A stretch of DNA of 64,000 nucleotides from Secundilactobacillus kimchicus JCM 15530 (GTDB lineage: Bacteria > Bacillota > Bacilli > Lactobacillales > Lactobacillaceae). Below the pieces are notes generated by a model that searched no databases, had not been told where the DNA came from, and saw only the letters and a program-made list of their open reading frames with translations. The stretch's first letter is position 1; each line of letters starts with the position of its first letter. The DNA lies in NCBI RefSeq assembly GCF_001433995.1, contig NZ_AZCX01000001.1, positions 248,001 to 312,000 of the forward strand. The letters are read 5' to 3'. Positions 1-4,075 of this stretch are shown piece by piece. The translations under genes were made by a program, and so were the position numbers.

Positions 1-453
<453 letters not shown>

Positions 454-471
454 CCAATTCAGATTGGATTG

Positions 472-1551
472 ATGGAAATGACACAACGGTATTTAATCCT
501 GGAAGACGGGAGTGTATATGCGGGAAACGGGTTTGGTGCAGGGGCCACAACGACAGGTGAGATTGTCTTTAACACGAGCATGGTCGGTTATCAAGAGGTC
601 GTCACCAACCAAATCTACCACAATCAAATCATTGTTTACTCCCAGCCCATTATCGGTGCCACGGGAATCAGCCATGATAGCTACGAATCAATTTTACCCA
701 CGGCTAAGGGGATGGTAGTACGCGATGTCGCAACCATTTCTAAAAACCGGCAACGTTCATTGTCGCTGGATCAATTTCTAAAGCAACATAATATTCCAGG
801 TATCAGCGACGTGGATACCCGGCAATTAATTCGGAAGCTGCAAAGCGTTGGGACCATCAAGGGCAGCATTGTTGATGTGGCCGACGACCATGCGTTTGAT
901 CAACTTCATGCAACGGTGTTAACAAATCAGCAGGTTGCCCAAGTTGCCACACCAAAGCCATATCCCAATCCGAACACTGGGTATAATGTCGTGGTTATTG
1001 ATTTTGGCCTTAAACACGGCATTTTACGACAATTGTCACAGCGTCACTGTAATGTGACCGTTTTGCCTTGGAATGCTGATGCTCAGGCAATCATAAGTCT
1101 TGATCCGGATGGCGTCATTTTATCCACGGGACCTGGTTCGCCCCTAGATGTACCAGAATCTGTACTGGAAATGGTCCGCACCATCCAAGAACGGATTCCG
1201 TTATTTGCCGTTGGTCTGGGGCACGAGCTTTTCGCGCTGGCCAATGGCGCCTCGATGACGCGATTGGGGACCGCACATCACGGGCCTAACCACCCAATTC
1301 GCAAAATTATTACTAATGACATTATTTATGCTGAGGAGGCCCAGGAGTACGTTGTTGACAGTGAAACGGTCGATCGAAACCGACTAATTACAACGTATTT
1401 GGATCTCATCGACGGTAGTATTCAAGGGTTGCGACACCGGGATTATCCGGCTTTTTCCGTTCAATTTTTCCCGGACGGCGCGCCTGGACCTCATGACTCT
1501 GTTGACTTATTTGACGAGTTTATGGAAATAATGGGGACACGAGAGGGGTAA
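472..1551 (+). CDS. carA: CarA-like carbamoyl-phosphate synthase small subunit lacking the glutaminase Cys and His
   Basis: About 359 residues, full family length, with the CPSase small-chain N domain (YLILEDGSVYAGNGFGA near the start, then IPGISDVDTRQLIRKL) and a class I glutamine amidotransferase domain. In working enzymes the nucleophile sits in GI-C-LGHQ. Here bases 1207-1227 read AVGLGHE, with Gly (GGT, bases 1213-1215) in place of Cys. The His of the usual VQYHPE/D is Phe (VQFFPD, TTC at 1468-1470). Surrounding residues (LFALANGA, FSV, PGPHDS) are intact, so this is residue loss in a conserved fold. The start is uncertain: TTG 469, ATG 472 and ATG 478 are in frame and none has a strong RBS. 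One base separates its stop from the next gene. Glutamine hydrolysis is not expected; an ammonia-dependent or regulatory role is inference. Confidence 0.85.
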   Translation: MEMTQRYLILEDGSVYAGNGFGAGATTTGEIVFNTSMVGYQEVVTNQIYHNQIIVYSQPIIGATGISHDSYESILPTAKGMVVRDVATISKNRQRSLSLDQFLKQHNIPGISDVDTRQLIRKLQSVGTIKGSIVDVADDHAFDQLHATVLTNQQVAQVATPKPYPNPNTGYNVVVIDFGLKHGILRQLSQRHCNVTVLPWNADAQAIISLDPDGVILSTGPGSPLDVPESVLEMVRTIQERIPLFAVGLGHELFALANGASMTRLGTAHHGPNHPIRKIITNDIIYAEEAQEYVVDSETVDRNRLITTYLDLIDGSIQGLRHRDYPAFSVQFFPDGAPGPHDSVDLFDEFMEIMGTREG

Positions 1552-1552
1552 C

Positions 1553-4075
1553 ATGGCTAACGACATTCAAAAAATTCTGATTATTGGCGGTGGGCCAACC
1601 GAAATTGGCCACGAAACCGAGTTAGACTCGGGAACCGTCCAAATCATTCAAGCGTTTCAAAAGCTTGGTATTCGCTCACTTTTAATTGATAATAACCCGT
1701 TTTCGGTGGCCCTAGAGTCTGTCCAGCCGACGAATATGTTTATTCAATCGGTGACCACCGAAAACGTCACTCGAATTATTGAACGCGAACAGCCGGATGC
1801 TATTTTACCCACAGCCGGCGGTGTCTCAGCCATCAGCGTCTGTCAAGAATTGCAGGAAACTGGGGTATTAGCTGAAAACAACGTTCAATTGCTGGGCATC
1901 CCGTCTGAGTCGCTCAGTGTAATTAATAACCCAGAACGCATTAATGCCGTTTTGGCCCAAATGAACCTGCCAGTCATTGAATCTGAGTCGGTCGGAACGT
2001 TGGATGAAGCCATCACGGTAGCCGGTAGAATTGGTTATCCGGTCATTGTAAAACCCGTTGCACCAAAGATTGATATGAGTCGGATGCTGTGTGATACCGA
2101 GGCTGATATGATTGAAGCCGTATCAAAGGGCTTTAATTGGTCTCGGTTTGGCCAATGTGTGATTGAACAAAGCATCGTGGGGTTGAAGGAAATCGAAATG
2201 GTGGCCATTCGTGACGGTCGCGGCACCCAGTTATTAATTTCTGGGTTGGAAAACATCGATCCGATTGGTATTCATTCTGGGGATTCAATGGTCGTTGCAC
2301 CCACGCTGACGTTAACAAATCAGGACTATCAGCGCCTGCGAGATACGACATTCTTCATCGGCACGCAGTTTAATTTCACCGGGGCAATGCATATTCATTT
2401 TGCCTTAGATCAAGCCCACGATGCCTATTTTGTCACCAAGGTCACACCGTACCTTGACCGGGGAACCGCTTTGGCGTCGACGGTGACAGGCTACCCAATT
2501 GCATTTGTCAGTGCCATGCTGTATCTGCAGACAAATCTCACCGACGTTAAGTTACCAGATGGTTATCGCTATCAGCAAAGCCTCTTGTTAGAACCAACGC
2601 TAGATCACGTCACCGTTAGGATGCCAATGTGGCCGTTCGAAGACGTCCCAGAAGCGGACCAACACCTGAGCACGGTGATGCACGCCGTTGGGTCAACGAT
2701 TGGAGTGGGAAGAAGTGCTGAAGAGGCCATTCTCAAGGCCCTGCGTTCATCTCAGTTCAGTCCGCGAGATGAGCTAACTTCCCGTTCTGATTTAACGGAT
2801 TACGAAATCATATCACTTCTCATTCACCCGTTAGCGAGCCGAGTATTAGTCTTGATTGAAGCCTTGAGACGTGGCTATCAGATTGACGAATTAACCGAAT
2901 TAACAAAAATTGATCCCTTTTATTTCCAAAAGTTTAAGCATATTTTAGCGGTTGAGGAATTAATTAAGAGCAAGCCACTGGATCCGACTGTCTTGAAAGA
3001 AGCCCGGTACTATGGTTTTGGCGATGGGATGGTTGCCCGATTATGGCGCGTTGATTTTGACACGGTTCGTCAGATAGCTAATGAGCATGATATTACACCA
3101 ACCTATAAAGGAATCGAACCAACTGCCGCCGAATTTCCGTCACAAACGTCGACGTTTTACAGTACGTTTGAAAACGAAAACGAATCAACACAATTGTCTG
3201 AACACACGGCATTGGTTTTAGGACGGGGCGGAAATCAACTGGGGCCGAATGCTTCAGCCGACTATTTTACAACTGAAATGCTAAAGCAGTTGAATAAATC
3301 AGGCTATAAAACAGTCACGATAAATACGAACTCTAACGCTGGCTCACTCATGAAGTCGCTGACGGACAAACAGTATATTGAGCCGATTCAGCTTGGGGAT
3401 GTTTTAAACGTGGTTCAAATTGAACATCCCGAAGTGATTTTTGTACCAGGAAATCGGCACTACTTAACGCGTGAATTACGGGCCCGAAAGTTGCCGGTGG
3501 CGGTTTTACCGCCCGATCAGGAGCAGCGTAGTGAGCTAGTTTACGACCACGCCGAAATTGGCTTAGACTTATTTGTGACGGCGCAACATACGGTGCCAAT
3601 TCTTTTGAGCGATCTACGTTCAGAACAAGGGCTTGCCACTAGTCTCAGTCAGTTGACTGTGATGAAAACGCCTAGTCAAGTGACAAAAACCCAGTTTGAC
3701 GATATTTTGTCACATGCAACTAATTATTTAACAGAGCACCCACGGACGGGGCTCGTCCAATTGCTATATACAATTGAGCGAGGTAAGGCGATTTTTGCAG
3801 GTATTCGACCAACTCGCCTAACTGCGATTGCATTCCTAAATAAAGTAACTGGGATCAATTGGATTCGAATGCTTGTTAGACAGGCACTCGGCGAAATTGA
3901 CGAGGCACTCATTGCAGATCTACCACTTGATATTCGGTCAAATCGGATCGCTGTTTTACGAGGAACATTCCCGTTTAAACAACTTCAGGTCCCCGAAAAA
4001 CTTGGCCTGACGACTCAGGAAGTTGGCGCAAAAATTGGATTTGGAACTGCAGAGGAAACAGATTTAACCGATTAA
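1553..4075 (+). CDS. carB: Degenerate CarB-like carbamoyl-phosphate synthase large subunit (840 aa, C-terminal domain absent)
   Basis: Uninterrupted 840 codons with a GAGGGG RBS overlapping the end of the CarA-like gene. The family is about 1060 residues. Domain order is still visible: N-terminal half (GGGPTEIGHETELDSG), first ATP-grasp, oligomerisation region, start of the second half (ALVLGRGGNQLGPNAS, about residue 552), then a shortened remainder. Key losses: the RPAFTLGGTGGG loop reads KPVAPKIDMSR (from about residue 168), and the metal-binding EVNPR reads KVTPY (residues 296-300). The second half keeps NKVTGI but has GIRPTR instead of EVNPR and lacks about 95 residues. The MGS-like allosteric domain is absent. 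The IHSGDSMVVAP block remains. Catalysis looks impossible by the known mechanism. No frameshift or stop suggests selection on the protein. Its function is unknown. Confidence 0.85.
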   Translation: MANDIQKILIIGGGPTEIGHETELDSGTVQIIQAFQKLGIRSLLIDNNPFSVALESVQPTNMFIQSVTTENVTRIIEREQPDAILPTAGGVSAISVCQELQETGVLAENNVQLLGIPSESLSVINNPERINAVLAQMNLPVIESESVGTLDEAITVAGRIGYPVIVKPVAPKIDMSRMLCDTEADMIEAVSKGFNWSRFGQCVIEQSIVGLKEIEMVAIRDGRGTQLLISGLENIDPIGIHSGDSMVVAPTLTLTNQDYQRLRDTTFFIGTQFNFTGAMHIHFALDQAHDAYFVTKVTPYLDRGTALASTVTGYPIAFVSAMLYLQTNLTDVKLPDGYRYQQSLLLEPTLDHVTVRMPMWPFEDVPEADQHLSTVMHAVGSTIGVGRSAEEAILKALRSSQFSPRDELTSRSDLTDYEIISLLIHPLASRVLVLIEALRRGYQIDELTELTKIDPFYFQKFKHILAVEELIKSKPLDPTVLKEARYYGFGDGMVARLWRVDFDTVRQIANEHDITPTYKGIEPTAAEFPSQTSTFYSTFENENESTQLSEHTALVLGRGGNQLGPNASADYFTTEMLKQLNKSGYKTVTINTNSNAGSLMKSLTDKQYIEPIQLGDVLNVVQIEHPEVIFVPGNRHYLTRELRARKLPVAVLPPDQEQRSELVYDHAEIGLDLFVTAQHTVPILLSDLRSEQGLATSLSQLTVMKTPSQVTKTQFDDILSHATNYLTEHPRTGLVQLLYTIERGKAIFAGIRPTRLTAIAFLNKVTGINWIRMLVRQALGEIDEALIADLPLDIRSNRIAVLRGTFPFKQLQVPEKLGLTTQEVGAKIGFGTAEETDLTD

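Follow-up and report, generated by a model that had tools for sequence, protein, structure and literature searches.

We propose, with moderate confidence, that two adjacent genes at the start of a 64,000-nucleotide stretch of the Secundilactobacillus kimchicus genome (the window) encode a pseudoenzyme pair, here called CarA' and CarB', that derives from the carbamoyl phosphate synthetase (CPS) of an ancestral pyr operon and has been kept as a ligand-sensing partner of PyrR. The partnership with PyrR, the ligand, the mechanism and the assembly of the pair are what we infer from comparison of sequences. An earlier, sequence-only reading of the window had recognised CarB' as a CarB-like protein bereft of catalytic residues, and it was right about that protein but too narrow in scope: what is present is a two-subunit, mostly PyrR-linked module that extends across the Lactobacillaceae. 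That reading had seen neither the dead CarA, nor pyrR in front of carA', nor the intact carAB elsewhere in the genome.

The genes of the locus (Table 1) stand in the order fhs-lspA-rluD-pyrR-carA'-carB', the first three being names that we have assigned, and the run is closed by an inverted repeat that is probably a two-way terminator. The mechanically called open reading frame of carA' begins at 469, and the ATG at 478 is the start found in orthologues. The frame of carB' runs from its ATG at 1553 to a stop at 4073–4075 with no internal stop, and the gene of 840 codons is therefore as intact as it had first appeared.

Table 1. Features of the pyrR-carA'-carB' locus, in window coordinates.
Feature	Position	Strand	Basis or remark
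pyrR (3' part)	1..453	+	178-aa PyrR; start 84 bases 5' of window (G000:C1:247917)
carA' (dead CPS small subunit)	478..1551	+	domain and residue comparison
carB' (dead, shortened CPS large subunit, 840 aa)	1553..4075	+	ORF, Pfam, residue alignment
Arg177 of CarB'	2081..2083	+	replaces ATP-loop Gly (E. coli G179); 41 of 43 short forms have Arg
Lys296 of CarB'	2438..2440	+	replaces metal ligand Glu299; all 43 short forms have Lys or Arg
Inverted repeat, 27 nt, 89%, 5-nt loop	4088..4146		between carB' and converging gene

The source genome (G000; 2.59 Mb in 45 contigs) carries one intact carAB pair elsewhere, on contig C12, which is the kind of second copy that the earlier reading had proposed to look for. 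Pfam detects no MGS domain in the active CarB of this pair (L007:6169-9240, 1023 aa), from which normal UMP control may be absent. Beside the active carAB, downstream of transporter genes, C12 also holds a 657-aa frame (L007:14922-16895) that combines a phosphonoacetaldehyde hydrolase (residues 30-281) with a 2-aminoethylphosphonate-pyruvate transaminase (292-651), each scoring above NCBIfam cut-offs. An 831-aa frame on the same contig (L007:51-2546), abundant in long Leu/Gly repeats, is possibly an antisense or misread repeat frame. About 2 kb 5' of fhs lies a long near-perfect hairpin (L006:2602-2698), and this one hairpin accounts for the four microRNA-family matches in an Rfam scan of L006 and L007, all of which fall below gathering scores.

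CarA' together with residues 3-661 of CarB' is homologous to CPS (CarA/CarB, PyrAA/PyrAB; PF00988, PF00117, PF25596, PF02786, PF02787), but the pair differs from the working enzyme in being without the Cys-His-Glu triad, the metal ligands, a full second ATP-grasp and the MGS domain. The catalytic roles of the E. coli CPS residues are textbook knowledge. By sequence the best solved relatives of CarB' are structures of E. coli CarB (1bxr, 1jdb and others; E 3.6e-124 over residues 3-661). Pfam finds in CarB' a pre-ATP-grasp domain in two stretches, one CPS ATP-grasp and an oligomerisation domain (71 bits, residues 423-498), and it finds no MGS allosteric domain, in agreement with what had been read from the letters. 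In the first ATP-grasp, by comparison with E. coli CarB (L095), Q285 is replaced by H, E299 by K, N301 by T and R303 by Y, the last three making up the exchange of EVNPR for KVTPY already noticed, and the metal ligands Q285, E299 and N301 are thus represented by H, K and T. E208 and R169 are replaced by Q and K, and the glycine loop GGSGGG, likewise reported as lost, aligns with IDMSRM; E215, G241 and H243 (E. coli numbering) are retained. After residue 548 follow a second pre-ATP-grasp and a shrunken second ATP-grasp, in which the alignment skips some 80–100 template residues, a range that takes in the 95 or so previously counted as missing. Here positions 715 and 754 fall in the gap, positions 829, 841 and 843 are L, G and R, and the GIRPTR that had been read as standing in for the second EVNPR aligns with DVNPRA of the genome's active CarB. 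CarB' scores under both NCBI cut-offs for the large subunit (537 under 1027 and 510 under 599). CarB' was also modelled with AlphaFold on nine similar rows, with a result (mean pLDDT 41.7, pTM 0.26) too poor for a pocket to be seen.

The small subunit has the domains of a CarA homologue (CPSase_sm_chain at 146 bits, GATase at 110 bits) and exceeds the NCBI equivalog cut-offs for that subunit (429 over 221 bits and 354 over 307). Relative to E. coli CarA, however, C269 has become G, Q273 E, H353 F and E355 D, so that GLGHE replaces CLGHQ and FPD replaces HPE. With Gly, Phe and Asp in place of the Cys269-His353-Glu355 triad of a working glutaminase, release of ammonia from glutamine by the known route is impossible. 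The loss of catalytic residues from both subunits makes CPS activity implausible, as the sequence-only reading had concluded from CarB' by itself.

These replacements recur in other genomes. Among 43 short forms of CarB' (819-863 aa; frames of more than 600 codons, with S. similis excluded), position 299 is Lys in 37 and Arg in 6; Arg303 is found in none, Q285 is left in 34 and N301 in 10, and 41 retain Glu215, 43 Gly241 and 39 His243. The 45 short-form CarA' genes (counting G094, represented by L077 and L269, once) have Gly269 in all 45, Glu273 in 42, Asp355 in 43 and His353 in none, and a dead CarA is present in 30 of 30 short-form loci of the first fetched sets. The replaced residues Gly269 of CarA' and Lys/Arg299 of CarB', invariant as a class in all 45 and all 43 sequences, are fixed and not drifting. 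Together with Glu273 of CarA' and Arg179 of CarB' (E. coli numbering), which like Lys/Arg299 alters the charge, they look like rebuilt binding sites.

We found nine loci belonging to named species of Secundilactobacillus, and carB' is open in eight of them, at 69-70% identity. In the ninth, an S. similis draft (L016, identical to L067), carB' is interrupted by three short indels, which is the kind of frameshift that the earlier reading had named as a sign of simple decay. Because the lspA frame of this draft is short as well (93 aa, where the other loci showing lspA have 145-198 aa), draft errors account for the indels with the same likelihood as decay. An inner stop occurs, among the matches listed, in G282 alone, and this is the same contig as L016. 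Between S. hailunensis and S. silagei, the sole pair with dS below 1 for every gene, dN/dS (NG86) is 0.018 for carB', 0.011 for carA', 0.008 for pyrR and 0.020 for rluD; other pairs are near or past saturation and give 0.013-0.029 for carB' and, where a value is given, 0.004-0.020 for carA'. That the two genes are pseudogenes in slow decay, as the S. similis draft might suggest, is therefore scarcely credible: it is contradicted by a dN/dS of about 0.02, by the near absence of inner stops and by the fixation of new residues, albeit in rows picked as open frames. Selection keeps carB', as had been supposed from its open frame.

Strong selection and fixed novel residues at both old active sites would also be expected of a new enzyme, with the pair catalysing some other reaction of pyrimidine or arginine metabolism. 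This we consider unlikely, since the nucleophile and the metal ligands are gone, the genes are linked to a regulator and not to other enzymes, and the pair is retained in genomes from which CarB and PyrB have gone. A binding or regulatory role, which the earlier reading had thought plausible, appears to be the best reading left.

The regulator in question is encoded directly 5' of carA' in 35 of the 39 short-form loci fetched, with a gap of mostly 2-91 bases, and a PyrR gene is present in all 61 short-form carriers examined; among the loci read, those of g3 and g6 have pyrR away from carA'. A 570-aa frame in G217 was considered as a possible PyrR-CarA' fusion and proved to be separate ORFs, a pyrR of 178 aa and a carA' of 362 aa. 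In the source genome the sole PyrR gene found is the one in the carA'B' operon (the next match has 26% identity at E 1.4e-5). Three PyrR RNA sites were found there at E 2.4e-5 or better, two of them over cut-off, and they precede pyrB-pyrC, pyrF-pyrE and an NCS2 permease that most resembles uracil permease, so that the only PyrR of this genome has targets. No site before the carA'B' operon is among the G000 matches.

We suggest that the ancestral pyr operon of the Lactobacillaceae encoded a CPS which lost catalysis, stayed beside pyrR and was kept for regulation. CarA' and CarB', whose subunit and oligomerisation domains are kept, would still assemble, would bind a pathway ligand in the rebuilt ATP-Mg and glutamine sites and would modulate the activity of PyrR, an RNA-binding attenuation protein whose gene lies immediately 5'. 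Alternatively, the pair may act in parallel to PyrR on pyrimidine uptake and synthesis, and the adjacency of pyrR and carA'B' may be mere inheritance of the ancestral operon order. PyrR does not need the dead pair, as is indicated by two genomes (G011 of g12 and G025 of g25) whose pyrR operon contains a CPS with all tested residues and in which a second CarB was not found.

Genomes that carry the pair differ in the rest of the pathway. Our sample consists of 77 hand-chosen genomes, a choice meant to take in genomes with a single match, and 61 of them are short-form carriers. Of these carriers, 26 have an ordinary-looking CarB (E 2.2e-125 or better, C-terminal half), G020 has a fragment, and none was found in 34, a number which in such a chosen sample is not a frequency; the carriers without an active CarB include the single-contig genomes G013, G034, G060 and G348. 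PyrB was not found in 29 carriers, 27 of which are without both PyrB and active CarB. A scan that scored at most 76 first-look candidates per genome gave a PyrR RNA site at E 1e-4 in 21 of these 27 (over the Rfam cut-off in 12) and none in the other six. The gene next to one site in each of the 21 genomes is uraA in nine, a nucleoside deoxyribosyltransferase in nine, a cytosine/uracil-type permease in two and an MFS transporter in one, so that 20 of these sites stand in front of genes for the uptake or salvage of pyrimidines; six of the downstream proteins were checked with Pfam, and the other deoxyribosyltransferases and permeases are named from look-alike sequence. G217 has a further site, perhaps by chance, in front of an ABC-type gene. 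The dead pair thus outlives CPS and PyrB, yet it was always found with PyrR.

This distribution bears on whether the dead pair acts as a prozyme, joining and tuning the cell's own active CarAB. CarB' still has its oligomerisation domain, an ordinary-looking CarB coexists with the pair in the source genome as well as in the 26 carriers, and precedents exist for other enzymes: in the excerpts of PMC5201418 and PMC3663545 available to us, S-adenosylmethionine decarboxylase and deoxyhypusine synthase of trypanosomatids each offer the likeness of a dead paralogue under selection. The dead CPS pair differs from the prozymes, as those excerpts present them, in occurring also where no active enzyme was found, and so it is not only an activator of that enzyme. 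The 34 carriers without active CarB, some of them single-contig, rule out modulation of active CPS as the general role, and we give the prozyme reading a distinctly low probability. A role independent of PyrR, for example in uracil uptake, draws on the position of uraA between pyrR and carA' in G010, G014, G021, G022 and G040 and beside carA' in G033, and on the uptake genes with PyrR sites, uraA or others, that carriers without CPS keep. Such a role seems improbable to us, however, because uraA is absent from the roughly 10-kb stretches of short-form loci that were read and pyrR is adjacent in most. We therefore retain the reading of CarA'B' as a candidate partner of PyrR.

The short-form pair was counted by hand in 228 of 397 sampled Lactobacillaceae genomes and in 21 of 40 genera, with a profile of the C-terminal part of CarB' (30 rows) at E below 1e-40. 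The weakest match counted has E 1.8e-42, the remaining profile matches (ordinary CarB or longer crippled copies) stop at 6.2e-30, and 23 genomes are matchless; residue-by-residue reading covers the fetched loci. Across 246 genomes of the order, 16 match the short-form profile at 1e-35, all of them Lactobacillaceae, the longer dead copies being invisible to this profile. In 80 genomes of the order from outside the family, drawn from about 210, no second CarA was found at E 1e-40, and 59 carry one match at this level; a dead CarA outside the Lactobacillaceae was sought in the 30 CarA fetched, all of which keep the Cys.

Other crippled CPS pairs, with the CarA triad broken, lie beside pyrR, uraA or rluD in nine genera outside the short-form set (G010, G014, G021, G022, G033, G037, G040, G003 and G008). 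The His is gone from all nine CarA and the Cys from eight, the CarA of G033 (L188) keeping its Cys with His and Glu lost. Among the eight corresponding CarB that were read, five have lost E299 (G010, G014, G033, G037, G040), and those of G003, G008 and G022 keep it but have Q285 replaced. Since E299 is kept, the term "dead" is less sure for these last three, of which the G003 and G008 proteins are cut off by the end of the stretch and align poorly and the G022 protein has 643 aa. The crippled CarB of G010 (L172) is full-length and retains its MGS domain. L188, L172 and L189 (G022), all beside uraA and two of the three with pyrR, represent different stages or routes of CPS loss.

At the same place in the genome, G011 has the order lspA-rluD-pyrR-uraA-pyrB-pyrC-carA-carB with every tested catalytic residue present, and on this ground we read the dead pair as the remnant of the CPS of the original pyr operon. 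In CarA trees the 40 short forms make up one clade (100/100), and the dead label has to change three times, twice because well-supported branches demand it, which implies more than one origin of the dead pair unless catalysis was regained. One of the trees was built without E. coli and six arginine-type rows, which have long branches, and long-branched rows are placed unsurely. The other crippled copies at this place also suggest that the conversion of CPS to a dead pair occurred repeatedly.

Bicarbonate is a substrate of CPS, and it is conceivable, though we think it quite unlikely, that CarA'B' is the missing inorganic-carbon sensor of lactobacilli, its bicarbonate site turned to sensing and informing PyrR (PyrR2 in L. 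plantarum) of carbon dioxide. A close likeness to a described system is with L. plantarum PyrR2 (lp_1782): G227 and G331, the two g38 genomes read, each carry two PyrR genes, 64-65% identical, one in a pyrR-B-C-carA-carB operon and the other beside the dead carA'B'. We infer that g38 is Lactiplantibacillus, as its gene content fits L. plantarum. The source genome differs from the PyrR2 system of L. plantarum in having one PyrR. Within the excerpts available, the literature names the operon pyrR1-B-C-Aa1-Ab1-D-F-E (PMC6044075) and lp_1782 (PMC7911632), and credits PyrR2 with control of the pyr operon in response to inorganic carbon (PMC3582564). We hypothesise that the dead pair might be linked to the response to carbon dioxide that is ascribed to PyrR2 of L. 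plantarum. The open-licence literature, as far as its accessible parts go, yielded no description of a dead CPS in lactobacilli, and mention of the gene pair in older papers of J Bacteriol is possible.

Because CarA' passes the equivalog cut-offs, automatic annotation and metabolic models probably credit its carriers with CPS, even where none was found. Across a large bacterial family, both subunits of CPS seem to have become a conserved pair that no longer catalyses, and the pair is a candidate way for PyrR-controlled genes to sense beyond pyrimidines, for example carbon dioxide.
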